19,819 bases of DNA from Nitrospinota bacterium (GTDB taxonomy: Bacteria; Nitrospinota; Nitrospinia; JACRGO01), in contig JACRGO010000004.1 of assembly GCA_016212295.1 (NCBI GenBank), forward strand, positions 1-19,819, given 5' to 3'. Shown here one piece after another: positions 1,436-19,630 of the stretch; within the stretch, counting starts at the first letter, position 1, and the number at the start of each line of letters is the position of its first letter. The position numbers were made by a program, and so were the translations under genes. A model generated the notes under the pieces. It saw only the letters and a program-made list of their open reading frames with translations. It was not told the origin of the DNA and ran no database searches.

Positions 1436-2821
1436 TCAATCATAAACCCAAAAGATTTTTCCAGGATTCATGATATTGTTTGGATCAAAGGCGTTTTTGA
1501 TTCTTCTTTGAAGCTCCATGCTTGGCCCGCCTATCTCTTGCTCAATAAAGCGGCTCTTGGACAGTCCAACCCCGTGCTCCCCTGAGATGGTCCCGCCCAT
1601 CTTCAGCACCTCCGTGAAAATCTCTTCCAGGGCGGAGTGCGCCCTTTTCATCAAGTCTACATCCGCTTTATCCACCATCAGATTGACGTGAATGTTGCCG
1701 TCTCCTGCATGGCCGAAGTTGACTATGGTGATGGAATATTTTTTTTCCAGTCTTTCCAGCATGCGTATGGCTTCCGGTATTTTGGTCCTTGGGACCGTTA
1801 CGTCCTCGTTGATCTTCGTGGGGCTGATCTTTCGCAGGGAAGGGGATATCGCCCTGCGAGCTGCCCAAAGTTTTTCGCGGTCCCTGGATTCCACGGCGGA
1901 GGAAATTTTCACCGCCCCGCCTCTCGCGCATAGGTCCTCTATTTTTTTAGCTTCCCTTTCCACCGTTGTTTCAGGGCCGTCCACTTCAATCAACAGCATG
2001 GCCCCCGTTTTTTCCGGGATATCGCCGCCGCCTAAATATTCCTTGACGCATTCCACGGCCCGCCGGTCCATATACTCCAAGGTTGCTGGAATGATCCGCG
2101 ACCTGACTATTGAAGCAACGCACTCCGTCGCCAGATTCATGTTGGGAAAAACGGAGAGGACAGTCCTCGTTGATTCCGGCTTGGGCAAAAGCTTCAATGT
2201 GATCTGCGCGACAACTCCAAGGGTCCCCTCAGAGCCCACGAAAAGCTTTGTCAGGTCATAGCCCACGACCCCTTTGGCTGTCCTTACGCCGATATTAATT
2301 ATCTCGCCGGTCGGCAGGACCGTCTGGAGTCCAAGGACGTAATCCTTTGTGACCCCGTATTTGAAGGCCCTGGGACCCCCGGCGCAGGTGGCGACGTTTC
2401 CTCCGATGGTTGCGATCTTCATGGAGGCCGGGTCCGGCGGATAAAAGAGTCCCCTGCTTTCAACCTCCTGCTGCAACCTTTCGTTTATAACTCCTGGCTG
2501 GACCACGGCAAGCAGGTTGTCTTCATCTATTTCGATGATTTTGTTCATTTTAGCGAGGGCCAGGACGATTCCCCTTTGTATCGGCACTGTCCCGCCCACA
2601 TAGCCGCTACCGGCCCCTCTAGGGACAACCGGAATTTTTTTCGCGTTGGCGATTTTAAGGATTTGGGAGATTTGAAGGGTCGAATCCGGAAAAACAACTA
2701 AATCCGGCAGGGCCTTTAATCCTGTGGCGTCGAAGGAATAGCAAATGAGGTCTTCCGTGGCGGACAGAACCCTTTCCTTGCCGCATATTTCCTGGATATC
2801 GCGTATTAGGGAGTTTTCCAT
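1436..2821 (-). CDS. FAD-linked oxidase, GlcD / D-lactate dehydrogenase type
   Basis: A 461-residue soluble flavoprotein of the vanillyl-alcohol-oxidase fold, as in glycolate oxidase subunit GlcD and D-lactate or D-2-hydroxyglutarate dehydrogenases, which oxidise 2-hydroxyacids to 2-oxoacids. FAD-binding signatures are visible: VPRGAGSGYVGG in the first third, then GGNVATCAGGPRAFKYGVT, and GSEGTLGVV. The C-terminal catalytic half carries NFGHAGDGNIHVNL and GGTISGEHGVGLSKSRF, the metal/substrate histidine motifs. Length fits the family. The start was placed at the ATG giving MENSLIRDIQEICG; the frame is open 25 codons further and another ATG lies at 2846-2848, but those residues look non-coding. 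No Shine-Dalgarno is seen at any option. No GlcE/GlcF or Fe-S partner lies nearby, so the substrate is undetermined. A ~200-bp composite repeat ends 43 bases upstream. Confidence 0.9.
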   Translation of the reverse strand: MENSLIRDIQEICGKERVLSATEDLICYSFDATGLKALPDLVVFPDSTLQISQILKIANAKKIPVVPRGAGSGYVGGTVPIQRGIVLALAKMNKIIEIDEDNLLAVVQPGVINERLQQEVESRGLFYPPDPASMKIATIGGNVATCAGGPRAFKYGVTKDYVLGLQTVLPTGEIINIGVRTAKGVVGYDLTKLFVGSEGTLGVVAQITLKLLPKPESTRTVLSVFPNMNLATECVASIVRSRIIPATLEYMDRRAVECVKEYLGGGDIPEKTGAMLLIEVDGPETTVEREAKKIEDLCARGGAVKISSAVESRDREKLWAARRAISPSLRKISPTKINEDVTVPRTKIPEAIRMLERLEKKYSITIVNFGHAGDGNIHVNLMVDKADVDLMKRAHSALEEIFTEVLKMGGTISGEHGVGLSKSRFIEQEIGGPSMELQRRIKNAFDPNNIMNPGKIFWVYD

Positions 2822-2864
2822 GTATATTTTGAAATTGATATAGAACATGGCGCGGCGCCGCCGC

Positions 2865-3066
2865 AACCAAAGGGAAAATAAAATCCCGAATGACAAATAG
2901 CAAATTACAAATAAATTACAAATTACAATTACTGAATGTCCAAAGCAACTACATTTCTTTGTTTGTCATTTGTAATTTTGGTTATTGAGATTTATTTGAC
3001 AATTGAGATTTGTTGTACGGAGAAATAATTTTGTGGTCTTTGTGCCTTTGCGCGCTTTGTGGTGAA
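2865..3066 (-). repeat. Composite dispersed repeat R2, copy A
   Basis: Read on the minus strand this ~200-bp block starts with a CACCACAAAGCGC module, continues through TCTCAATTGTCAAATAA, TCTCAATAACCAAAATTACAAA and GGACATTCAGTAATTGT, then ATTTGTAATTTGTCATT-type A/T-rich DNA ending near TTTTCCCTTTGGTT. The same modules occur in the same order at 11893-12086 on the plus strand. It fills nearly all the space between the capD-like gene and the FAD oxidase and points toward the oxidase start. Internal ATTTGTAATTT and AAATTACAAAT blocks can pair with each other. No coding capacity is credible. Confidence 0.8.
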
Positions 3067-3124
3067 ATGGCTTTATATTTTTTTGCTGGACTGAGTTGCT
3101 GGTGCCTGGGGGCGGAGCTCGGAG

Positions 3125-4942
3125 TCAGACGTTCAACGGGCTGCGTTCGTAAATTCTATTTTCGGCAAAGCGGCTTAATTTTCCTTCAGGGACGATTTGG
3201 AGCAAGAGGGACGCCACCTCTTGTTCGCGCTGCTCCTGGACCTGCTTTATCAGGTCCCGGACAAGAAAGCCCAGGTTCCGGTCGGGTTGACAACCATTGG
3301 AGTGGGCCAGGAGGATATTTTCATAAGCCGTGGGTTTTTTCTTTTCTCCAGGCGTCCAAAGTTCCTCAACCATTTTTTCACCTGGCCTTAGTCCTGTGAA
3401 TTTGATTTGTATGTCCTTCCTGCCGGAAAGGGAAATAAGGCTCTTGGCCAGGTTCAATATCTTGATCGGTTTTCCCATCTCGAGGACAAAGGTTTCCCCT
3501 CCCAGGCCCATGGCGCCTGCCAGCATCACGAGTTGCGCGGCCTCCTTGATGGTCATGAAGTACCGGGTTACGTCCGGGTGGGTAATGGTCACAGGCCCGC
3601 CTTTCCTGATCTGCTCCTGAAACAAGGGAATCACGCTGCCGCGGCTCCCAAGGACGTTCCCGAAGCGGACCGTCATGAACTTGGTGCGGCTCTCCTGGGC
3701 GAAGTCCTTTAAAATCAGCTCCGCGACCCTTTTGGAAATCCCCATGACGCTGGTGGCGTTGACTACCTTGTCCGTGGAGATGTTCACGAAGCGCTCCACC
3801 CCATATTCCTCTGAAAGAAGGAGGAGGTTCCTGGTGCCTATGACGTTGTTCCTGACCGCCTGACATACGTTTTGCTCCATCATTGGCACGTGCTTATACG
3901 CAGCGGCGTGGTAAACAACAGAAGGGCGGTGCGTTTCCATGGCCTTGCGCACGTCACGCTCATCCGTAACGTCACCGATTACCGGGACAAATGAAATCCC
4001 TGGAAAATTTCTCTTGAGGATGAATTCCAGTTCATAGAGATTTGCCTCGTCCCGCTCGAACAGTATAACCTTTTCGGGTTTGAAGCGCATGGCCTGGCGG
4101 GCGAGCTCTGATCCAATGGACCCGCCAGCGCCAGTTATCATCACCCTTTGGCCCTTGATGGTTATTTCAATTTCCCCTGGCTCGATCTCAACGGCCTTTC
4201 TGCAAAGGAGGTCTTCAAGTGAAACGTCCCTGACAACTCCAAGGTTCACCTCGTCGTTTATCAATTCATCCTCCGCCGGCACTGTTTGGCAGGGGACCCC
4301 GGATTGAACGCAGTAGCGGACGATCTCCTTCATCTGTTTTTCCGAGGCGGAGGGAATGGCGATGAGTATTTTTTCAATATACCGTTCCCTGGCGATGCGG
4401 GGTATGTCCTTGCGCGTCCCAAGCACCGGGACCCCGCAGATGGCAAGGCCGGAGAGGTTCGGGTTATCGTCCACGAGCCCAACCACATGAAGGCGGAGTT
4501 CCGGCTTTGACTCGATTTCCTTGATAAGCCTCGACCCGGAATCGCCCGCGCCGATAATGAGCACTTTCTTAAGGTCTTTTTTTTTAACGATTCCGTTTCG
4601 GAAAAACGCCAGGTAAGAGGAGAAGAAGAGGAAAAAAAAGAGGCATTCCGCGAGAACCACCGGTTTGATCTCCCCGCCTGCTCCCCAAAGGAAGAGAAGA
4701 AAGGCCCAGGAAATTGACCCCAGGATGGCGGTCCTGAAAGCTGAAACAAGTTTTATTTTAGTTCCGGGGGCGGAAGGGTCGATACCGCCGTTTAATAAAA
4801 GCGGGAGCGTCTTTCCGGCGCAAAAGGCGCCGAAGAGGGCCATCCAGTAAAGAGGCCCTGCGGCGGCTTCCTGAAAAAAGGCAAGGAAGGGCAGGGCGGA
4901 GAAAAAAGATAAAAGAGAGATGGCAAAATAGATTTTGATCAT
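3125..4942 (-). CDS. Membrane-bound nucleotide-sugar 4,6-dehydratase (FlaA1/CapD/WbpM type)
   Basis: About 605 residues. Residues 1-115 hold four hydrophobic segments, the membrane domain of WbpM/PglF-type enzymes. A Rossmann domain follows at KVLIIGAGDSGSRL (about 126-139), then the extended short-chain dehydrogenase domain with VMITGAGGSIGSELARQ (about 267-283), YHAAAYKHVPMMEQ, ISTDKVVNATSVMGISKR and VRFGNVLGSRGSVIPLF. In MGISK, Met replaces the usual Tyr (Met400 and Lys404), matching the SMK triad known for the large membrane-bound class rather than the SYK of short soluble FlaA1. The family converts UDP-GlcNAc (or a similar sugar) to a 4-keto-6-deoxy sugar for O-antigen, capsule or protein glycans. 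Start uncertain: ATGs lie at 4942, 4957 and 4993, none with a Shine-Dalgarno, and the DNA upstream of 4942 begins to look like intergenic repeat. No other sugar genes are adjacent. Confidence 0.92.
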   Translation of the reverse strand: MIKIYFAISLLSFFSALPFLAFFQEAAAGPLYWMALFGAFCAGKTLPLLLNGGIDPSAPGTKIKLVSAFRTAILGSISWAFLLFLWGAGGEIKPVVLAECLFFFLFFSSYLAFFRNGIVKKKDLKKVLIIGAGDSGSRLIKEIESKPELRLHVVGLVDDNPNLSGLAICGVPVLGTRKDIPRIARERYIEKILIAIPSASEKQMKEIVRYCVQSGVPCQTVPAEDELINDEVNLGVVRDVSLEDLLCRKAVEIEPGEIEITIKGQRVMITGAGGSIGSELARQAMRFKPEKVILFERDEANLYELEFILKRNFPGISFVPVIGDVTDERDVRKAMETHRPSVVYHAAAYKHVPMMEQNVCQAVRNNVIGTRNLLLLSEEYGVERFVNISTDKVVNATSVMGISKRVAELILKDFAQESRTKFMTVRFGNVLGSRGSVIPLFQEQIRKGGPVTITHPDVTRYFMTIKEAAQLVMLAGAMGLGGETFVLEMGKPIKILNLAKSLISLSGRKDIQIKFTGLRPGEKMVEELWTPGEKKKPTAYENILLAHSNGCQPDRNLGFLVRDLIKQVQEQREQEVASLLLQIVPEGKLSRFAENRIYERSPLNV

Positions 4943-5000
4943 AGGCAAATCAGTCATTGGCCATTTTGGCAATAATTCAATAGTAAGCGACATCAGGCAG

Positions 5001-5092
5001 TAGTCATTGGTCAGTAGTCATTTGTCATTGATAAGCAGGAAGACGCCATAATGACTAATGACTACTGACTACTGACTACTGACCAATGACTA
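5001..5092. repeat. Long hairpin repeat with TGACTAC tandem units
   Basis: A perfect 20-bp inverted repeat joins 5001-5020 and 5073-5092, with a second pairing inside (GTCATT 5024-5029 with AATGAC 5050-5055). The right arm contains the 7-bp unit TGACTAC three times in tandem. A further AGTCATTGG lies at 4953-4960 inside the longest possible frame of the dehydratase. The hairpin fills the 150-base gap between the helicase stop and the dehydratase start, so it would fold in a shared transcript or block readthrough. Confidence 0.8.
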
Positions 5093-5147
5093 ATATTTTA
5101 TCTTATCGAAATAAATTGCAGAAAGAATAAGTTTTTTTAATCCCTCC

Positions 5148-7082
5148 TCAGAAATACTCCCATGATCCCAGTTTTTTCACCAGTCCGTTTTCACGCAACG
5201 GATGCAGGAATTGGGAAGGCGGGGCGGAATAAAAATTTCCGTAACGGTCCTTTTTCAGGGTGGAAAAGGTGAAGTAAAGCCGCTCCTTTGCCCTGGTGGC
5301 GGCCACGTAAAAGAGCCTGCGCTCTTCTTCCAGTTCTTCCTCATCCTCCACAGCATAAGGATTCGGGAAACTCCCCTCGTTTGCGCCCATAACAAAAACT
5401 GTATGCCATTCCAGTCCCTTGGCGGAATGCACGGTTGAAAGGACCAAGTGCTCCTCTCTGGTTTTGGCGTCGGCCAAGGCCCCGTTCCTGGACGCGTTCG
5501 GCGGCTCCAGGGCCATGTCAGCCAGGAGTTGATCCAGCTTTTTATATTTAGCGGCAATGCCGAGGAATTGGTCGAGGTCCCTCTTCCTCTTCGGGAAATC
5601 GTCGTATTTGGATTCCAGCGCGGGATTGTAATAATCGAGGACTTTTTCAATAATCAGGGACGGCGGCCTGTCCGCCGCTGTTATATGTCGGAAGAGCTGC
5701 TCCAGGTCATGCAGGGGTTTGCGGAATTTTTCAAATCCTTTCAGCTTTGTGAGGGCGAAGGGATTTTCAAGGGCTTGGATCTGCTGGATCACCTTGGCCG
5801 CGGTCTTGGGTCCCATGCCGTCCATGAGCAAGAGCAGCCTGGTCCAGCTCACGGCGTCATTAGGGTTCGCCACGACCCGCAAATGGGAAACCACGTCCTT
5901 TATGTGGGCGGTTTCAACGAATTTAAATCCGCCGTATTTCACGAAATGGATATTTCGCTTATTCAACTCCAACTCCAGCTCAAAGGAATGGAAGGAGTTC
6001 CTGAAAAGCACGGCTATGTCGTTAAGGGGAAGAGACAGGGTATGTGTTAGTTCCTCAATTGTATCAACGATGAAATATGCCTCTTCAGCCGGACTATCAC
6101 TTCCAACTACAGCAGGGACCTCTTTTCCTTTTTTAATTTTGGAAAAGAGATTTTTCGCGAATTTTTCCCTTGCCGGCGCCATGAGGGCGTTGCAGACATC
6201 CAGTATCTTCTGGGTGCTTCTGTAGTTTTCCTCCAGCTTAATCACCTGGAGGTCCGGGAAAAATCTTTCAAACTCCATGATATTGCCGAAATTGGCCCCG
6301 CGGAAGGAGTAGATGCACTGGGCAGGGTCCCCAACTGCCATTATATTATTGTGTCCACGACCGAGGAGGTTTATTATTTCCGCTTGCAGTATATTGGTGT
6401 CCTGGTATTCATCCACCATCAGGAAGCGGTATTGGCGCTGGACCTTTTCCTGGATTTCCGGCGACTCCAGGAGTTCCTTGAAGAGGACCAGGAGGTCGTC
6501 GTAATCAACCAGGTTGTGTTTCTTTTTGTACTCGGAATAGGCGGCTTTAAGGTGGGTGATCTCTTCCAGGAGGAAGAGGAACTGGGGATAGGCTTTCGCC
6601 AGGACCAGGTTCAGGGGCATCCGTTTGTTGATGGAAAAGGAAAAGATAGCGGAGAGGGTGGATTTTTTTGGAAAATTCTTGATTTCTTTCCCATAACCTT
6701 TTTCGGTCTTCAGTATACCGAGGCAATCCTGAGAGTCCGAGGAGTCCAGGATAGTAAAGCCCGGACTCATTCCTATCGCGGAGCCATATTTGCGGAGCAG
6801 CAGGTTCCCCACGGAATGGAAGGTGCCGCCTGAGACCCTGTTGCACCGGTCATCAGCCAGCATGGACGAGCGGTGAAGCATTTCCAGGGAGGCTTTTCTG
6901 GTGAAGGTAAGAAGGAGGATGCTTTCCGGCGGGATATCGCTTTCAACGAGCTTGGCAACGCGGTACACAAGGGTCCTGGTTTTTCCGGACCCCGCCCCTG
7001 CGATTACCAAAAAAACCCCCTCCCTCCGTGTCACCGCCTCGTATTGCGCGGGGTTCAGTTCCTTTTCATAATCTATCTTCAT
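5148..7082 (-). CDS. UvrD/PcrA/Rep-type SF1A DNA helicase
   Basis: A 644-residue 3'-5' helicase for DNA repair or replication restart. The SF1 motifs appear in order: Q-motif LNPAQYEAV, Walker A GAGSGKT (29-35), Ia LLTFTRKASLEML, Walker B DEYQDTN, III AVGDPAQCIYSFRGA, IV LEENYRST, V LSTVHSAKGLEWHTVFV and VI EEERRLFYVAATRAKERLYF. It is somewhat shorter than E. coli UvrD (about 720) and ends soon after motif VI, without the long C-terminal tail, so I do not choose between UvrD, PcrA and Rep. The ATG at 7080-7082 gives a normal N-terminus (MKIDYEKELNPAQYEAV). The leader is CTCC-rich with no Shine-Dalgarno. The preceding gene on the same strand is rpmB, 94 bases upstream. Confidence 0.95.
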   Translation of the reverse strand: MKIDYEKELNPAQYEAVTRREGVFLVIAGAGSGKTRTLVYRVAKLVESDIPPESILLLTFTRKASLEMLHRSSMLADDRCNRVSGGTFHSVGNLLLRKYGSAIGMSPGFTILDSSDSQDCLGILKTEKGYGKEIKNFPKKSTLSAIFSFSINKRMPLNLVLAKAYPQFLFLLEEITHLKAAYSEYKKKHNLVDYDDLLVLFKELLESPEIQEKVQRQYRFLMVDEYQDTNILQAEIINLLGRGHNNIMAVGDPAQCIYSFRGANFGNIMEFERFFPDLQVIKLEENYRSTQKILDVCNALMAPAREKFAKNLFSKIKKGKEVPAVVGSDSPAEEAYFIVDTIEELTHTLSLPLNDIAVLFRNSFHSFELELELNKRNIHFVKYGGFKFVETAHIKDVVSHLRVVANPNDAVSWTRLLLLMDGMGPKTAAKVIQQIQALENPFALTKLKGFEKFRKPLHDLEQLFRHITAADRPPSLIIEKVLDYYNPALESKYDDFPKRKRDLDQFLGIAAKYKKLDQLLADMALEPPNASRNGALADAKTREEHLVLSTVHSAKGLEWHTVFVMGANEGSFPNPYAVEDEEELEEERRLFYVAATRAKERLYFTFSTLKKDRYGNFYSAPPSQFLHPLRENGLVKKLGSWEYF

Positions 7083-7127
7083 GGAAAGGCCGGGGAGGAG
7101 GGAGAGCGTAATGCGTCATGAATGGTA

Positions 7128-7144
7128 AGTCATGGCTCATGACT
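7128..7144. repeat. Palindrome between rpmB and the helicase gene
   Basis: AGTCATG (7128-7134), GCT, CATGACT (7138-7144): a perfect 7-bp inverted repeat with a 3-base loop, with further TCATGA copies on each side (7116-7121). It is too short and lacks a T-run to be a standard terminator. Its TCATGACT units resemble those in the hairpin at 5001-5092. Confidence 0.5.
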
Positions 7145-7176
7145 CATTTCGACGTTCGATGCTCAGAGTTGGAGTC

Positions 7177-7368
7177 CTATGCCGCCTTCTGGATTTTTCC
7201 CGCCTTGATGCAGCGTGTGCAGACCCTGATGGTTTTAGTGGTCTTGTTCATAACTACCTTGACTCTTTGAAGGTTCGGGTTCCAGCGTCTCCTGGTTTTA
7301 TTGTTCGCGTGGCTGACGCTGTTTCCGAAAGAAGGAATTTTTTCACATACCTCACACTTTCTAGCCAA
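7177..7368 (-). CDS. rpmB: 50S ribosomal protein L28, zinc-binding form
   Basis: A 63-residue protein, full length for bacterial L28. It begins [29 protein letters not shown] and carries the C+ zinc ribbon: Cys5-x-x-Cys8 and Cys50-x-x-Cys53. It binds the 50S subunit near the exit-site region. The start codon is TTG (7366-7368), decided by a good Shine-Dalgarno GGAGG at 7377-7381, eight bases upstream; there is no ATG in a better place. A/T-rich DNA with TATATTTTAAAT just upstream (about 7383-7394) could contain the -10 box. The gene is divergent from the DUF1858 gene. Confidence 0.96.
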
Positions 7369-7376
7369 TGTTCTGT

Positions 7377-7381
7377 CCTCC
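7377..7381 (-). promoter_or_regulatory. Shine-Dalgarno that fixes the TTG start of rpmB
   Basis: GGAGG on the minus strand, eight bases before TTG. The second codon reads GCT (Ala), giving the normal MARKC N-terminus, so the rare start codon is well supported. Confidence 0.8.
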
Positions 7382-7588
7382 GTGATTTAAAATATAAGTT
7401 TTATTTGATTTTTGTAAGAGCCTACTTTATCATATAACTAACCTTTGTGGCAAGGTTGGTATGTCCCAACTTGAGCATGCAGGTATAAAATTTTTCACAA
7501 AGCCGCGAAGCACAAAGATTTGCAAAGCTTTTTCCATGGTTTTCTCTTTGTGTCCTCGGTGTCTTTGTGGTGAAGAGGCATATAAAAA
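7382..7588. other. Divergent intergenic region between rpmB and the DUF1858 gene
   Basis: The rpmB-proximal part (7382-7440) is A/T-rich and promoter-like for the minus strand. 7440-7492 shows nothing recognisable. 7493-7580 is a copy of the CACAAAG-type repeat described separately. No gene is seen. Confidence 0.5.
7496..7569. repeat. CACAAAG-type inverted repeat R3
   Basis: The left arm carries CACAAAG at 7496-7502 and 7511-7517, spaced by CCGCGAAG. The right arm carries CTTTGTG at 7546-7552 and 7563-7569, spaced by TCCTCGGTGT. The arms pair across a T-rich centre. The repeat ends about 20 bases before the DUF1858 ATG, and its tail GTGAAGAGG is the only Shine-Dalgarno-like sequence for that gene. 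Related CACAAAG/CGCAGAG units occur at about 3033, 7855, 11894 and 19421. Confidence 0.7.
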
Positions 7589-7798
7589 ATGGAAATAACA
7601 AAAGATTCTTCCATCAATGAAATTTTAAAGGAATTCCCGGAGTCGGCCAAGGTCTTCGATAAATACAACATGGGCTGCATGGGCTGCATGGGGGCTTCCG
7701 CCGAATCCGTTGAGAACGGGGCCTTGATGCACGGCTTGGACGCCAACATGATCGTGGAGGAATTGAACAGGATCATCGGCCGGAAACAGCAATCCTGA
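7589..7798 (+). CDS. DUF1858 domain protein
   Basis: A 69-residue protein that is a single DUF1858 domain: SSINEILKEFPESAKVFDKY, the cysteine turn NMGCMGCMGAS (Cys30 and Cys33), then a helical half, HGLDANMIVEELNRIIGRK. The same domain is found N-terminal in ScdA/RIC-type and hybrid-cluster-associated proteins; stand-alone forms are common in anaerobes, and a role with iron-sulfur clusters or redox sensing is suspected but not established. The cysteine region is encoded by a 9-base repeat, so Met-Gly-Cys is repeated. The ATG is preceded only by GAAGAGG, contributed by the flanking repeat. The gene stands alone, divergent from rpmB. Confidence 0.85.
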   Translation: MEITKDSSINEILKEFPESAKVFDKYNMGCMGCMGASAESVENGALMHGLDANMIVEELNRIIGRKQQS

Positions 7799-8162
7799 TC
7801 AATTTAGATACTTACACGTTCATTCTGACTGAGAATTCGTCTCTCCATTTTATTTACCGCAAAGGCGCAGAGACCGCAAAGAAAATCTTTTTTCAATTAT
7901 CAACTCTGCGCCGAGACCAGCTCCAGCCCGCTTTCATTATGCCTGAATCTGACCCGCAATCTGGAATTTAAAATATTTTTGCGTTTACTATAGCCTTTTT
8001 TACCAAGTGCTTTTTTATTTACGCCCGGCGAAATTCGTATCAAAAAAACCCCTGCCCGTCTTGTGCCTTGCCTTATCCGCCCTTTGCAAAAGGCCGGGCT
8101 TGTCTGGTACATTCTTAGGCGTCGAATCGAATGTAAATATCTTTTGGGAGGAGAGGGAAAAC
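7799..8162. other. Long leader region upstream of the CheA-like kinase
   Basis: This 364-base region has no credible separate gene, although the kinase frame stays open back to 8007. A CGCAAAG/CGCAGAG repeat unit lies at about 7855-7887, with a partial inverse match at 7904-7918. The rest is unexplained; it includes a small hairpin CCTTT-GCA-AAAGG (about 8081-8093) and T-runs at 7997-8018. A strong Shine-Dalgarno, GGGAGGAGAGGG (8146-8157), serves the ATG at 8163. No known riboswitch consensus could be matched. Confidence 0.5.
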
Positions 8163-10052
8163 ATGGCAACGCAAACAAAGGCAAGGGAAAAGCGGCAACT
8201 GCTTCAGCACGACGGCTTTCTTGGAAGGCTTGAAGATATAAAGGATCACTACCGCCTCAGATCCGGTGATTTGCCCGACTCATTCGACGTGGCGCGATTC
8301 ACAGCCGACATGAAAGAGGCCAACAGGGGCGTGGTCCCTTGCTGGGAGTTGAAAAAATGCGAACGCTGGTTTGGGGGAAAGAAGGAGCAGGAGCTTGGAA
8401 TGTGCCTCGTTTATCCTTGGGGCGGCTGGCAGTGCTGGGCCATCGCCGGCACACTCTGCGGGGGCGTTGTCCAGGGCTCGGCCGCTCAAAAGGAGGGAAA
8501 TTGCCAGATGTGTCCGCATTACCTCACCCTCATGGAAGATGATCCAGCGAAGCTAAAATCGGACAGCCTGTACTTTTCCACTGTCATGCAGCACATGCTC
8601 ATCGGGATCGGAACCATTAATCCAAAGGGGGTCATTGATTTTCAATCCTCCAGGAAGTTTCAGGAATTCCTCGGCAAGGACGTGGCCGGGAAAAATTTTG
8701 CCACTCCCTTGGCTCTCTCACCGGAAGACGATGCCAAATTGAACGAGTGGATCAAGGACGTATTTGAACTCTATGGGACCCTGAGCTGGGACATGCTTTG
8801 GGACATGTTCCCCCTCAAGGACAAGGAAATACCCGTTAACGGACGGCATTACCGTCTGACAATGGCCCCCTACCTCAGACGTGACGCCGGGAGCGGACAG
8901 GAAAAGCTGTTTCGCGTGCTCGTTCAGGTAAGCGACGTGTCCGCCGAGGTCAGGGCCAAGGAATTGGCCTACCAGGAGCGGGTCGTAACGGACACGATCA
9001 TGGCCAGGGTCAAGAACCTTGGCTCCTTCAAGGACTTCATCAATCAGTCCCACCAGATGCTTCCAAGGGCCGAGGTCCTGGTGAAAAGGTTCATGGAGGG
9101 AGACCGGAGTCCGGCGTTATTGGAGGAGGCGTACCGGATCATGCACACCCTCAAGGGCACCTCCGGGAACTTCGCCATGGATTCCTTCGTCAAAACGGCC
9201 CACGACTCGGAAAGGTTCTTCGGCATACTCATGAAGATCAGCGAACGGGACAAGGCCGGAGACGAGGTCAAGCAAGCCATCGGGGAATTCAAGAATGTTT
9301 TCAATAATTTCCAAAGCCTTCAAAACGAGATCAAGGAAGCGGTCCAGTTCATGGCGGACCACGCGGGAATAGAGATCGAGGTGGAGCAGGGGGGCGGCCT
9401 GGCGGTCAACGTGAACACTAAACTGCTGAATGAGGCCATGAAACTCATGAACGCGGGGAAGACCTTTGAGGCGATGAAGTTATTGCAGCGCGCCAAGGAA
9501 GTTCCAATCAAACCGCTCTTTCAGGAGATGGCCGCGCAAGTGGAGAGGATCGCCGCCGACCGGGGAAAGGAGGCCGTTTTCTCCTTCAAGGGAGACGATA
9601 TTACCATCGATAAGGACTTGCAGGTGGACCTCTCCGCGGTCCTGGTCCACATGGTGAGGAACGCGATTGACCATGGGATAGAGAAGCCGGAGGACCGTAT
9701 AGCCGCCGGCAAGGAGTCCGCCGGATATATAGAACTTGGGGCAGTCAAGGAAGAAGAGGCCCTCACTGTCACCTTGAAGGATGACGGAAAAGGGATCGAC
9801 CTGGAAAAGATCCGCGAGAAGGCCGGCCTGCCCGAAGGGACCCCTATGGAGCAGATAGTGGCCCAGATTTATAAATCCGGGTTTTCCACCTTGGAGAACG
9901 CAAACACCACTTCTGGCCGGGGAGTGGGGATGGATGTGGTTAAAACGACCCTTGAGGAAAAACTCAAGGGCAAGGTCCACTTGAAAACCGAACAGGGCCG
10001 CGGTACGGAGATAAGCCTGCATATACCTCTCAAGAATATCGGAAAATTTTGA
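8163..10052 (+). CDS. CheA-like kinase: two-CW / PAS-like / HPt / HATPase
   Basis: 629 residues, no signal peptide or membrane helix. Residues 55-125 form a cysteine domain: PCWELKKC (Cys60, Cys66), Cys81, QCW (Cys91), Cys99 and CQMC (Cys114, Cys117). This is the two-CW type seen in deltaproteobacterial sensors and probably binds metal or senses redox state. Residues about 135-260 are PAS-like. Residues about 295-390 are an HPt domain with the phospho-site His328 in MHTLKGTSGNF. Residues about 485-625 are a CheA-type ATPase with N-box MVRNAIDHGIE, KDDGKGID and SGRGVGMD. There is no CheW-like regulatory domain and no receiver. It should phosphorylate its own HPt and pass phosphate to a receiver elsewhere. 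The ATG at 8163 was chosen over the longer frame (from 8007) because of the strong Shine-Dalgarno. The next gene starts 84 bases downstream. Confidence 0.88.
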   Translation: MATQTKAREKRQLLQHDGFLGRLEDIKDHYRLRSGDLPDSFDVARFTADMKEANRGVVPCWELKKCERWFGGKKEQELGMCLVYPWGGWQCWAIAGTLCGGVVQGSAAQKEGNCQMCPHYLTLMEDDPAKLKSDSLYFSTVMQHMLIGIGTINPKGVIDFQSSRKFQEFLGKDVAGKNFATPLALSPEDDAKLNEWIKDVFELYGTLSWDMLWDMFPLKDKEIPVNGRHYRLTMAPYLRRDAGSGQEKLFRVLVQVSDVSAEVRAKELAYQERVVTDTIMARVKNLGSFKDFINQSHQMLPRAEVLVKRFMEGDRSPALLEEAYRIMHTLKGTSGNFAMDSFVKTAHDSERFFGILMKISERDKAGDEVKQAIGEFKNVFNNFQSLQNEIKEAVQFMADHAGIEIEVEQGGGLAVNVNTKLLNEAMKLMNAGKTFEAMKLLQRAKEVPIKPLFQEMAAQVERIAADRGKEAVFSFKGDDITIDKDLQVDLSAVLVHMVRNAIDHGIEKPEDRIAAGKESAGYIELGAVKEEEALTVTLKDDGKGIDLEKIREKAGLPEGTPMEQIVAQIYKSGFSTLENANTTSGRGVGMDVVKTTLEEKLKGKVHLKTEQGRGTEISLHIPLKNIGKF

Positions 10053-10136
10053 GTACCCGCATATGGTTCCAGCTTTTTTTATACTTCAACTTCAAAAGTT
10101 CCTGATAAATAAACATTTTTTGTCTTTCCTGGATAT

Positions 10137-11870
10137 ATGGGCCTGCAAGAAAAAATATTGGTAGTGGATACCGATCAAGGCGTTTTCAAATATCTGAGCG
10201 CGAGACTGGCTAAAAATGGGTTTCTCATGCAATACGCATCAGACAGTTTGGAGGCTATTGAACTGGTTAAACCCGGTTCCTTTGATATAGCGATAGTGGA
10301 GGTCGACATGCCGGAAATAAACGGAGTCACTATCTTGAAAAGATTCAAGGAGATTGATCCCTATCTTCAGGTATTAATGATGGGAAATACAGGGGACGCA
10401 AGGCAGGCGATGGGCGCCTTGAAATACAAGGCGGCGGATTTTCTTGTGAAGCCCTTTGGGGATTTTGGGGACATAGGGGCCGCTATTGGGCGTTCCCTGA
10501 AGGAAAAGAGATTGCATATGGAAAACAAGGCCCTGCTGAAGGAGCTTGAGGCCGCCAACAGGGAATTATCCGAAAAGGTGAAGGAAAAAACCAGGGAATT
10601 GCGGGATTTAAACTTATTGATGCTCGATTACACCGAGGAACTTGCAACCGTCATCCAGGGAATCACGTATCTTCAAATGAGTGCTGACTCCCGTCAGGCG
10701 GTGGAGAAAATAGTGGAGGGTTTGGAGAAAAATTTCCGGATAGACAAGGCATGTCTTTTGTTGTGTGAGCAGGGTAACATGCCGGTGGTGATCGGCCATT
10801 CCTCGAGTTTAGGTCCGGGCCTAATGGAATTTTCCAGCGAAAAAAGCATGGGGCCGGTCATGGAAACCGTTAAAACAGGCAGATCCTTGAGTTGGACTGA
10901 ATATGCCGGGGATTGGCCGCAGGGGCGCAAGGTATTTAAAGAGTGGGCAATTTTTCCGATGCGCGCCAGGAATGAGGTCCTGGGTGTTTTGATAGTCAAC
11001 GCCCCGGACAGGGAAAAACTGGACGCGCTCAGGATTTATATCAACATGTTCACCCTCGGCCTCTCGAATTTGCTCCTGTTCGAGGAGGTGCAAAAAAACG
11101 GCAAGGAACTGGCCGCGAAAAAAGATGAATTGGAAAAGGCCAATGCCAGACTGCGGGAACTGGACGCTCTGAAAACCAATTTCATGAACATGGTTGTCCA
11201 TGATATCCGGACCCCCTTGACCTCCATCAAGGCATATACCGATCTGATTATAATGTATAAGGATAAACCCGAAAAAACCAAGGAACAGTTCGCTCAAATC
11301 ATTAAATCCGAATGCGGAAGGCTGGAAACCTTGGTCAACAATTTCCTTAACCTCGAAAAAATTGAATCAGGCAACGTGGATTTTGTATTTGAACCAGCCT
11401 GCGCCCAGGATTTGCTGGAGCATTTCGTGTCCGTGTATAAGGCTGTTGCGGACGCAAGGAAAATCAAGATCGCTTTGGATTGCGAAAAAGACCTTCCATT
11501 GGTCGGCATCGATAAGGATGGCATTGGCCAAGTTGTCAGCAACCTTTTGAGCAATGCGATGAAATTTACTCCTGAGAATGGCGATATCCGAGTGGGGGCG
11601 AGGCTTTTGGATCCCTTTGTCGAAATCAGCGTTCAGGATAACGGCCCTGGAATTCCTGGAAACATGCTGTCAGCCGTTTTTAATAAATTCACACAGGCAC
11701 ACCGGAAGAAAGTCAAAGGAGGCACTGGCCTGGGGCTTGCCATCGCTAAAAATATCATTGAAAGGCACGGCGGAAATATCGGGGTGGAGTCCGAGGAAGG
11801 GAAGGGCAGCAGGTTCTATTTTACGCTTAAAATCCATAGAGAGGCGGAACCAGGAACAAGTTTAAAGTGA
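10137..11870 (+). CDS. Receiver / GAF / sensor histidine kinase
   Basis: 577 residues, cytosolic. Residues 1-120 are a receiver: KILVVDTDQ, FDIAIVEVDMPEINGV, then FLVKPF (Lys105). The phospho-acceptor position is Glu55 instead of Asp, one of the acidic pair is Thr12, and the switch Thr is Gly83, so it is probably not phosphorylated and may mimic the active state. Residues about 125-160 are coiled coil; about 165-315 are GAF-like; about 320-345 form a second coiled coil. The kinase core has the H-box MVVHDIRTPLTS (His355), N-box QVVSNLLSNAMKF, DNGPGIP, FNKFTQ and GGTGLGLAI. It is probably a sensor kinase gated by the receiver and GAF domains. No Shine-Dalgarno precedes the ATG. The last codons and stop lie in repeat-like DNA (ACAAGTTTAAAGTGAGCTAA). 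Confidence 0.93.
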   Translation: MGLQEKILVVDTDQGVFKYLSARLAKNGFLMQYASDSLEAIELVKPGSFDIAIVEVDMPEINGVTILKRFKEIDPYLQVLMMGNTGDARQAMGALKYKAADFLVKPFGDFGDIGAAIGRSLKEKRLHMENKALLKELEAANRELSEKVKEKTRELRDLNLLMLDYTEELATVIQGITYLQMSADSRQAVEKIVEGLEKNFRIDKACLLLCEQGNMPVVIGHSSSLGPGLMEFSSEKSMGPVMETVKTGRSLSWTEYAGDWPQGRKVFKEWAIFPMRARNEVLGVLIVNAPDREKLDALRIYINMFTLGLSNLLLFEEVQKNGKELAAKKDELEKANARLRELDALKTNFMNMVVHDIRTPLTSIKAYTDLIIMYKDKPEKTKEQFAQIIKSECGRLETLVNNFLNLEKIESGNVDFVFEPACAQDLLEHFVSVYKAVADARKIKIALDCEKDLPLVGIDKDGIGQVVSNLLSNAMKFTPENGDIRVGARLLDPFVEISVQDNGPGIPGNMLSAVFNKFTQAHRKKVKGGTGLGLAIAKNIIERHGGNIGVESEEGKGSRFYFTLKIHREAEPGTSLK

Positions 11871-11892
11871 GCTAAAGTTAAAAATTATTTTT

Positions 11893-12086
11893 TACCACAA
11901 AGCGCACAAAGCAGGCGCAAAGATCACGAAGTTTTAGTGAAATTTCAATTGTCAAATAACAAATAAATCTCAATAAACAAAATTACAAAGAATAAACAAG
12001 GAAATGGAACTGTTTTGGACATTCAGTAATTGTTATTTGTGCTTTATTTGTAATTTGTCATTTGGAATTTTGTTTTCCTTTTGGTT
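11893..12086 (+). repeat. Composite dispersed repeat R2, copy B
   Basis: Same modules and order as the minus-strand copy at 2865-3066: ACCACAAAGCGCACAAAG, TCAATTGTCAAATAA, TAAATCTCAATAAACAAAAT, GGACATTCAGTAATTGT, TTTGTAATTTGTCATTTGG, and TTTTCCTTTTGGTT at the end. Identity is high at the ends and centre, with short insertions between. It fills most of the 268 bases between the two signalling genes and ends 52 bases before the start codon of the downstream gene, in the same relative orientation as copy A. Confidence 0.8.
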
Positions 12087-12138: not shown

Positions 12139-14145
12139 ATGCAAACTACAAAAATCATGGTCATAGGCGCCGCTGAAGAGGTTTTTTCCGATCTTAACCG
12201 GAACATGGGGAATTCCTGCGTGCGCATGGACCAGGCCATGTTTGATTCAAACAAGATACTCGATGCCGGCCCTGACCTGATCCTCTTGTTTCAGGATGGC
12301 GACAGGGAAAATACCGTCTCCACTTTAATGCGGATCAGGGAGACGGACGAATCGTGGAATATTCCTATATTGCTGGTGGTCCCTGAAAAAGATGTTTCAG
12401 ATCCCGGCAAGTGGGCCGATATACCCTTGGACGACTTCATCACCGCTCCTATTAATTTCCTTGAACTAAAAACCAGGACGAAGTCTCTCCTGGAAAAAAG
12501 TGAGTTGCGCCATAAAGTCAAGGACATGGAGATGGCGATGGCCAAGTGCCAGGGCCACATGAAGGAAAAAATGTTCCTGATTACGACCCTATTTGTAGTG
12601 GGTGAAAAGTTAAAGGAGCACGTTGACCCTTCGGAAATATACAAGGCTATTCGAGACACCCTTGTCAGGATAGCCGACGTTGAATCTTTTTCCATTTATT
12701 TATTCGACGAGGAAAAAAAGAATTTGGCCAAGGTAAGCTTAAAGGGATTCGCGATGCAAATGCCGGACAAGTTGCCCCTGGAAGGACTGAGCGGACCTCT
12801 GAAAGAGGTCATGGATACGGAAAATGCTTTTTTCTATAAGAAGACGGATTTTGCTTTTCCTGCGGAAGATGCGAAGGAGGGGGTTCCGGCGGTTTTTTTA
12901 GGCCTTCCGTTATTGGCCGCGCTTCCCATTAAAACCGCCAGGATGAACCTGGGAGTCATACTCATACATAAGCTCAAGGACCCGGAGGGTGACAGGATTG
13001 ATTTTAATCTGCTAACCATATTGACCGCGCAGGTGGCCTCGGCGATTTATAATTGCCGCCTTCACAAGAAAATCGAGGATTATTCAACGGAACTCGACCT
13101 GACCAGCAAAAAATTGGAAAGGTCAAAACTGTCCCTTGAGGAGCAGATGTTCCATTTGAATACCGTCACGCTCTTCTCCTCGCAACTCCACTCAACCTTT
13201 AAACTCGATGATGTTTATGAAGTGATCCGGGACCTTTTGGTGAATTTCCTTGGAGCTGAAATATTTCACATCCTGTATCTGGATGAGGGCAACCATGAAA
13301 CTTTTACAGGATTTGCCGATGGAGTTACTGAGGAAGAAAAAGAGGAAGCCAATGTAAACAGGTTCCAACGGATAACGGATAAAGTCCTGCGAACAGGGGA
13401 ACCATTCTTGAATCCCTCCTTTGGAAAAGACCAAGCAGACCCCTCTTCTTTTTCTCATGATAACGCTCCCCTGGCCTGCCTGCCGCTCATGCTTGATGAA
13501 AAACCGGTCGGGGTCCTTATAATTGAAAGGTTCCTTCCTCAAAAAAAAGGTTTCAGCAAGGAAGACTATGAACTATTGTCTCTCCTTGCCCAGGAGGCGG
13601 CCATGGCCCTGATGACCGGCCATCTCTACCCGAAAACTCAAACCAAGGCCGTAAGCGATCCCATTACCGGATTATACAACCACAGCCATTTCCAAAGGTG
13701 CGTTGATCTCGAATTTCTCAGGGCCAGAAGATACAAGACCCCTCTGTCCCTTATCCTGGTGGATATAGACGATTTCAGGGACATTAACGCCATGCGCGGA
13801 TACATCCTGGGCGATATGATCCTTCGCGATATAGGGAACATCCTCCAACTGACCAGGAACGATTTGGATGTGCTGGCCAGATACGGCCCGGAGGAGTTCG
13901 GCGTCCTCCTTCCGCAAACCGGCCTGGAAGGGGCGATTATCCTGGCGGAGAGAATTCGCGAAAAGGTGCAAGCCCATCAATTTCAATCCAAGGAAGGCCC
14001 CTTTAAGCTCACGGTAAGCATCGGGATTGGAAACTACCCGAACCAAAAGGGCAGGGAGGCTTTGGTCAACGTGGCGGAAGCGTCCTTGCTGGACGCAAAG
14101 CGGGCCGGGAAGAACAGGGTGGTGTTTCGTGAACAAGTGAACTGA
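12139..14145 (+). CDS. Pseudo-receiver / GAF / GAF / degenerate GGDEF protein
   Basis: 668 residues, cytosolic. Residues 1-118 have a receiver-like pattern (KIMVIGAAEE, GPDLILLFQDGD, DDFITAPIN) but lack the acidic pair, the phospho-Asp (Phe51) and the Lys (Ala103). Two GAF-like domains follow (about 145-310 and 340-495), separated by a coiled coil. The C-terminal domain (about 505-663) starts SDPITGLYNHSHFQ and is a diguanylate-cyclase fold. Its signature reads RYGPEEF (581-587), with Pro584 where the second Gly belongs. Asp542 (metal) and Asn550 remain, but the usual Asp after that Asn is Ala551, and no inhibitory RxxD is in register. Catalysis is doubtful; it may be a GTP or c-di-GMP sensor. 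Start: ATG at 12139 after AGGGAAATAAATTG; a TTG one codon earlier is possible. The stop lies within GTGACAAG-type repeat DNA. Confidence 0.9.
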   Translation: MQTTKIMVIGAAEEVFSDLNRNMGNSCVRMDQAMFDSNKILDAGPDLILLFQDGDRENTVSTLMRIRETDESWNIPILLVVPEKDVSDPGKWADIPLDDFITAPINFLELKTRTKSLLEKSELRHKVKDMEMAMAKCQGHMKEKMFLITTLFVVGEKLKEHVDPSEIYKAIRDTLVRIADVESFSIYLFDEEKKNLAKVSLKGFAMQMPDKLPLEGLSGPLKEVMDTENAFFYKKTDFAFPAEDAKEGVPAVFLGLPLLAALPIKTARMNLGVILIHKLKDPEGDRIDFNLLTILTAQVASAIYNCRLHKKIEDYSTELDLTSKKLERSKLSLEEQMFHLNTVTLFSSQLHSTFKLDDVYEVIRDLLVNFLGAEIFHILYLDEGNHETFTGFADGVTEEEKEEANVNRFQRITDKVLRTGEPFLNPSFGKDQADPSSFSHDNAPLACLPLMLDEKPVGVLIIERFLPQKKGFSKEDYELLSLLAQEAAMALMTGHLYPKTQTKAVSDPITGLYNHSHFQRCVDLEFLRARRYKTPLSLILVDIDDFRDINAMRGYILGDMILRDIGNILQLTRNDLDVLARYGPEEFGVLLPQTGLEGAIILAERIREKVQAHQFQSKEGPFKLTVSIGIGNYPNQKGREALVNVAEASLLDAKRAGKNRVVFREQVN

Positions 14146-14300
14146 AGTGACAAGTGACGAGTGACGAGTAACAAGTTACGAGTGGCTAAAGTTTAAAGTG
14201 ACTAAAATTGTGGAAGTTATTTTTTTATTATAAAAAGAAACCTAACACAATTTTAGTTCACTTTAGTCACTTTAGCTCACTTGAAACTTTAGTCACTTTA
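14146..14300. repeat. AGTGAC / TAAAGTGACT repeat with long hairpin before ligA
   Basis: The first part is tandem 7-base-like units (AAGTGAC, AAGTGACGAGTGACGAGTAAC). The second is a ~30-bp imperfect inverted repeat: 14182-14212 pairs with 14246-14280 (ends ACTAAAATTGTG and CACAATTTTAGT), around a 33-base A/T-rich loop. Another TAGTCACTTTA follows at 14290-14300. It fills the whole gap between the GGDEF gene and ligA, stopping 12 bases before the ligA ATG. Confidence 0.75.
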
Positions 14301-19450: not shown

Positions 19451-19509
19451 AATTTGTAACTATTCAGCGAAATATTATATGCCCTCGATAGTCGTCGTTA
19501 AATGCACCT

Positions 19510-19630
19510 TTACATCCCCCTTGATCCCCCTTGAGAAGGGGGAATTGGTTGTCACCCATCGCGCGCGGGGTTTCTTCCAGCCATCACACTTTCATTCCTC
19601 CTTGGAAAAGGGGGCCAGGGGGATGTGAAA
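19510..19630. repeat. Dispersed inverted repeat with CCCCCTTGATCCCCCTTG arms
   Basis: The left arm (19510-19542), ACATCCCCCTTGATCCCC then CTTGAGAAGGGGG, pairs with the right arm (about 19597-19630), CCTTGGAAAAGGGGG then CCAGGGGGATGT, with a ~55-base centre. This is the widespread AAGGGGG-type intergenic repeat seen in many environmental bacterial genomes. The plus-strand frame at 19398-19628 is a translation of this repeat and is not a gene. Confidence 0.7.

Follow-up and report, generated by a model that had tools for sequence, protein, structure and literature searches.

A high-copy, PATE/BIME-like intergenic repeat with a hairpin-YATG end in a Nitrospinota genome

Results

Two repeat copies upstream of unrelated genes

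We found that a repeat lying upstream of two genes in the window (the whole 19,819-nucleotide stretch of Nitrospinota DNA analysed here) is a member of a family with at least 149 matches in its genome. The family is probably a non-autonomous mobile repeat of PATE/BIME-like character, inserted 3' of YATG by what would be an HUH (Y1) enzyme. An initial annotation of the window had noticed the two copies and suggested a mobile leader, an untranslated regulator or a small non-autonomous element. The first two of these, as a conserved feature, are unlikely; the last agrees with the high copy number, the intergenic placement, the lack of coding capacity and two sites that are empty in a sister genome.

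Copy A, on the minus strand, and copy B, on the plus strand, are 83% identical over 124 nt, with a further match of 79% over 57 nt on the 3' side and no difference in GGACATTCAGTAATTGT. In both, a core of ~140 bp runs from CAAATCTCAATTG to TTTTCC (copy A, 2873..3012, minus; copy B, 11940..12078, plus, with similarity extending to 12086). The 5' arm of copy A is 7 bp, or one CAAATAA unit, below the family consensus length. As initially reported, each copy is directed into its next gene, and the two genes are unrelated. The 3' end of copy A faces a gene for an FAD-linked oxidase (GlcD-like; 1436..2822, minus), and that of copy B faces a GAF-GGDEF gene (12139..14145, plus), with a response-regulator/histidine-kinase gene upstream (10137..11870, plus). 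The distances of 43 and 52 nt given for the two copies agree with ATGs at 2822 and 12139.

The limits of the repeat had to be redrawn at both ends. Copy A had been placed as ending at 2865; it continues into a hairpin, GGTTGCGGC-loop-GCCGCGCCATG (hp3; 2846..2871, minus), whose sequence, TTTGGTTGCGGCGGCGCCGCGCCATG, is an exact match and forms the right end of the element. An alternative ATG of the oxidase gene, at 2848, falls within this hairpin, which is absent from copy B, unlike copy A. On the 5' side, the similarity of the two copies holds up, but the proposed composite of about 200 bp is not one unit. Fused to each core is a repeat of a separate family, ACCACAAAG..CACAAAG (about 3029..3063, minus, in copy A; 11894..11935, plus, in copy B, where it runs ACCACAAAGCGCACAAAG..CAAAGATCACGAAGTTTT). 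This repeat, which joins the core at CAAAGTTTT, is also found solo elsewhere.

Other repeats were observed in the window. Two inverted arrays of ATTGGTT-type nonamers lie at 211-310 and 865-965, and an inverted intergenic TGACTACTGAC / GTCAGTAGTCA repeat at 4973-5113 represents another dispersed family. Short repeats at 7803-7893 and 19504-19550 recur at many positions of G001, the sister genome. An inverted repeat of ACTTTAGTCAC/GTGACTAAAGT words at 14146-14300 also occurs in G001, unlike the core, and has the same hp3 end at other sites of the present genome.

Copy number, placement and orientation

The genome comprises 3.74 Mb in 237 contigs, in an assembly that is 90% complete. The BLASTN comparison that the initial annotation had proposed, run with copy B as the query, gave at least 40 strong matches among 274 candidates. 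When we searched with a 23-base core pattern, allowing up to 3 mismatches, at least 149 matches were found (76 on the plus and 73 on the minus strand), compared with 4 for the reversed pattern. What had been read as two independent insertions are two of these copies. No match to the core was detected in viral contigs, phages or plasmids.

Placement was examined in 476 kb around core copies, with genes called by a simple codon-usage script. Only 1 of 105 sampled copies lay within a called gene, though 78% of the sampled sequence was coding. Repeat families such as that of the core made up 34% of the sampled intergenic DNA, a value biased upward by the core-centred sample. The core measured 128-168 bp in nearly all copies, too short for a transposase, and no gene was found inside it. 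The only strong candidate for an empty site within the genome, a pair of tRNA-Ser genes, was rejected as not being an insertion. One core copy lies between two tRNA-Ser-like tRNA genes (L061, G000:C170, about 2787-3287).

Among the 98 sampled copies with both flanks, 40 lay between genes in tandem with the same direction as the element, 29 between tandem genes with the opposite direction, 14 between convergent and 15 between divergent genes. The gene on the 3' side ran in the direction of the element in 55 cases and in the opposite direction in 43 (p=0.27). The distance from the 3' end to a start codon was widely spread (median 37, interquartile range 12-102); from the 5' end the median was 113.5 (p=7e-4). 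Stop codons were even closer to the core 3' end than start codons, and extra repeats were frequent on the 5' side, so that the difference in distance is no sign of leader function. Given this breadth of orientations and distances, the matching orientation and spacing of copies A and B, to which meaning had been attached, is a two-copy coincidence.

Sister genome and other lineages

Among 60 genomes searched with the core pattern, G001, the only same-genus genome compared (99% complete), yielded no core copy, and elsewhere there were at most single 2-mismatch matches; one 3-mismatch match in G001 is due to chance. At the site of copy B, the kinase stop and the GGDEF start are 3 bp apart in G001, compared with ~270 bp, including the copy, in the present genome. 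At a second site, carrying a copy on contig C146, the interval between holB and a PSP1-domain gene is 6 bp in G001 and 297 bp here. These two closed operon junctions indicate that the copies were gained in the present genome. The flanking genes at both sites are only ~67-74% identical, and the exact insertion points are therefore unreadable. A third site (the L042 region) had no orthologue in G001, and the copy A site is not comparable because the gene next to the FAD oxidase on its upstream side is another one there.

In HyVt-354, 22 matches to related elements were found in 0.8 Mb, with none in the control. Loci L126, L128 and L133-L153 of this genome are distantly homologous to the core: they share its TTTTGRACATTNGGTAATT middle and its CAAATNN arms, and some are broken by short hairpins. 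Related elements were present in low number in 4 of 5 other examined members of the same small phylum, which is unrelated to that of the present genome. The distribution of the core across phyla is patchy. A match in Kuenenia (L127) was discarded as a core homologue, being short and partial.

Anatomy of the unit

The whole unit is ~175-190 bp long, with a core of ~147 bp. It begins with AAA(A/C/T)TCCAAATC; CAAATNN heptamers make up the left arm and NNATTTG heptamers the right arm, on either side of a middle, GGAAATGGAATTGTTTTGGACATTCRGTAATTG, that is highly conserved. The unit closes with a GC-rich hairpin whose last bases are YATG. Core lengths were multiples of 7 in 47 of 81 copies, most commonly 147 and 140 nt, a clustering that fits gain and loss of heptamers.

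We found that ATG stands directly left of the left end, AAANTCCAAATC, in 46 of 85 copies, compared with a background of 1.4%. After removal of copies with known upstream repeats the proportion was 15 of 45 (p=5e-17), and the sequence beyond this ATG was unrelated between copies. ATG was present at the right end in 42 of 68 copies; ~40% of copies lack it on one side or the other. The left end and the right end, GCCGCGCCATG, are unrelated, so that terminal inverted repeats are lacking. In 21 copies, with one choice of ends, target duplication was not detected, the LCS being 4.0 compared with 3.78 +/- 0.16 for shuffled pairing.

The consensus folded better than dinucleotide-shuffled sequences did (z of -4.5 for DNA and -4.9 for RNA) because the CAAATNN and NNATTTG arms are loosely complementary. 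RNAalifold on 43 copies gave zero consensus pairs and no compensatory changes in the core, and searches of Rfam at the gathering threshold and at E<=1 returned nothing credible. The promoter scan gave no match in copy B and only weak ones in copy A; a TTGGAC-N17-TGTAAT string in the core was considered as a promoter and rejected, since the scan did not support it.

The hp3 hairpin and candidate enzymes

The hp3 hairpin is a palindrome of ~25 nt with 237 occurrences in the genome, mostly intergenic (control 0), and 12 variants in G001. It occurs solo or joined to at least 4 repeat bodies besides the core. Its stem is retained in most of 81 sequences, largely via one-sided changes from G-C to G-T. 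It is followed by CATG, and its consensus has neither a GTAG nor a CGTC tag. Right-end hp3 was present in about 65-75% of core copies, and a left hairpin, hp5, in only about a third to 40%. At 9 places (control 0) an hp3-like end runs into a core-type left end via a single shared ATG. Three of these junctions (L213, L214 and L216) clearly terminate another repeat family; a further one, L217, stops short of the core and is probably due to chance.

The genome has two Y1 genes, one on C179 (product of 329 aa) and one on C211 (180 aa), and no core copy was found within about 1.5 kb of either. No transposase carrying the ends of the element was found in this genome; the carrier may be missing, as the assembly is fragmented and incomplete. 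None of the sampled pairs of core halves flanks a transposase as an autonomous version would, the interruptions being non-coding repeats. Two interrupted copies, on C168 (about 4303-4652, in L060) and C15 (about 6289-6644, in L076), contain nested MITEs whose inverted ends are of the GTAAC type and whose target duplications are 8 bp long (TGGAATTG and GTTATTTG). These ends may resemble those of the IS66 family. Elsewhere, a small RAYT-like Y1 transposase of 180 aa (L122, G000:C211) is surrounded by many GTTACGGATTTGCAATCCGTAACG-type palindromes and likely forms a REP/RAYT system of its own, distinct from that of the core.

Discussion

The ends of the element suggest how it may move. Following the logic of IS200/IS605 (HUH/Y1) elements, it would travel as single-stranded DNA: an enzyme acting in trans would bind at the hairpin of the right end, which it recognises, and cut 3' of YATG, and the element would be joined 3' of another YATG with the target not duplicated. 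Insertion at YATG without duplication fits what is described for IS200/IS605 elements and PATEs (PMC7290912, PMC3119063). Each right end would recreate YATG as a landing site, letting further elements land side by side, and mosaic arrays would be the outcome. Any influence on adjacent genes would be incidental. The ATG could also be part of the element itself and not of the target, and the mosaics could have arisen by recombination between short repeats.

Among known systems, PATEs of Haloquadratum walsbyi (PMC3119063) and Halanaerobium (PMC7290912) come close: they too are short, high-copy elements without a transposase gene, terminal inverted repeats or target duplication, and MITEs target both PATEs (PMC3119063) and the core. 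PATEs have palindromes near their ends; in the core family the right-end palindrome is present in most copies and the left-end one in only a minority. In known PATEs, the end palindromes also occur on an IS605-type transposon of the same host. No such transposon was found here, and the family is therefore PATE-like, not PATE. Bacterial MITEs (for example Chunjie in Geobacter uraniireducens, QMITEs in Coxiella; PMC10969869) are likewise non-autonomous, AT-rich and intergenic, 100-250 bp long and represented by many truncated copies, but differ from the present element, which lacks terminal inverted repeats and target duplication. The TAACTGA repeats of Beggiatoaceae (PMC4679880) are also intergenic units of seven bases; they form plain direct arrays immediately ahead of start codons, whereas the heptamers described here form two opposed arms in a dispersed element with no start-codon specificity. 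Stem-loop-containing sequence families (PMC2267715) are similarly dispersed, foldable and mostly intergenic; they are a descriptive class from 40 genomes, and the core here has no conserved pairing.

In a leader, the repeat would stand in one orientation before start codons and control the next gene as an RNA or a promoter. Both window copies, aimed into genes at 43-52 nt, the better-than-shuffle folding and the shorter distance from the 3' end to start codons would agree with such a function. The initial annotation had named random orientation, scattered distances and a lack of compensatory changes as evidence against its own suggestion, and this is close to what we observed. Orientation is 55:43, the 14 copies between convergent genes adjoin no start codon, neither the alignment of 43 copies nor Rfam offers a conserved structure, and promoter matches are weak or missing. 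The proximity to start codons is exceeded by that to stop codons, and the 5' side is often laden with repeats. The leader reading is largely refuted by orientation and context, and we regard it as very improbable. A MITE of the classical kind, mobilised by a DDE transposase, would likewise be short, AT-rich, intergenic and numerous, and genuine GTAAC-type MITEs with 8-bp duplications occur in this very genome, nested in core copies. The ends of the core, AAACTCC.. and ..GCCGCGCCATG, are not mutual inverted repeats, though; its duplication signal does not rise above shuffled pairing, and its left flank is a fixed ATG in place of a variable duplication. We consider this origin quite unlikely.

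Another alternative is a REP/BIME system proper, in which hp3 would be a REP spread by the RAYT (TnpA-REP) of this genome and the core a passenger between palindromes. REP, BIME and REPIN systems with RAYTs (PMC3733652, PMC8266576, PMC3116915) resemble our family in their hundreds of intergenic palindromes, their mosaics and a suspected Y1 enzyme, and the abundance of hp3, solo or on several bodies, together with two Y1 genes, would suit them. Yet hp3 carries neither GTAG nor CGTC, the tags by which the known REP superfamilies are defined (PMC3733652), the palindromes around the RAYT on C211 are different ones, and the heptamer-armed core of ~147 bp was found near neither Y1 gene, which makes this account unlikely, if less so than a classical MITE. 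The repeats might also have spread with no transposition at all, through slippage of heptamers together with recombination, or gene conversion, among the short repeats that lie between genes. The 7-bp steps in core length and the mosaic junctions at short shared strings (CAAAGTTTT, ATG) agree with this, but it leaves unexplained both the presence of single, scattered copies at operon junctions where the sister genome has no gap to hold one and the precise, ATG-bounded left end beside unrelated upstream sequence. We find it the least credible of the alternatives.

Insertion 3' of YATG by an HUH enzyme thus remains the reading we favour. A broader proposal, which we advance tentatively and think rather doubtful, is that the CAAATNN-heptamer core, the TTTAGTCAC arrays, the ATTATTACGTT family and others are unrelated passengers of one HUH enzyme that needs only the shared right-end hairpin-YATG; the core homologues in HyVt-354 and its relatives would then show that this unnamed class crosses phyla.

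Two copies alone can make families of this kind look like leaders or regulatory RNAs. If the YATG/hairpin reading is right, the family would provide a testable case in which one end signal serves several unrelated passenger repeats, and it would extend PATE-like systems to a lineage that is uncultured.
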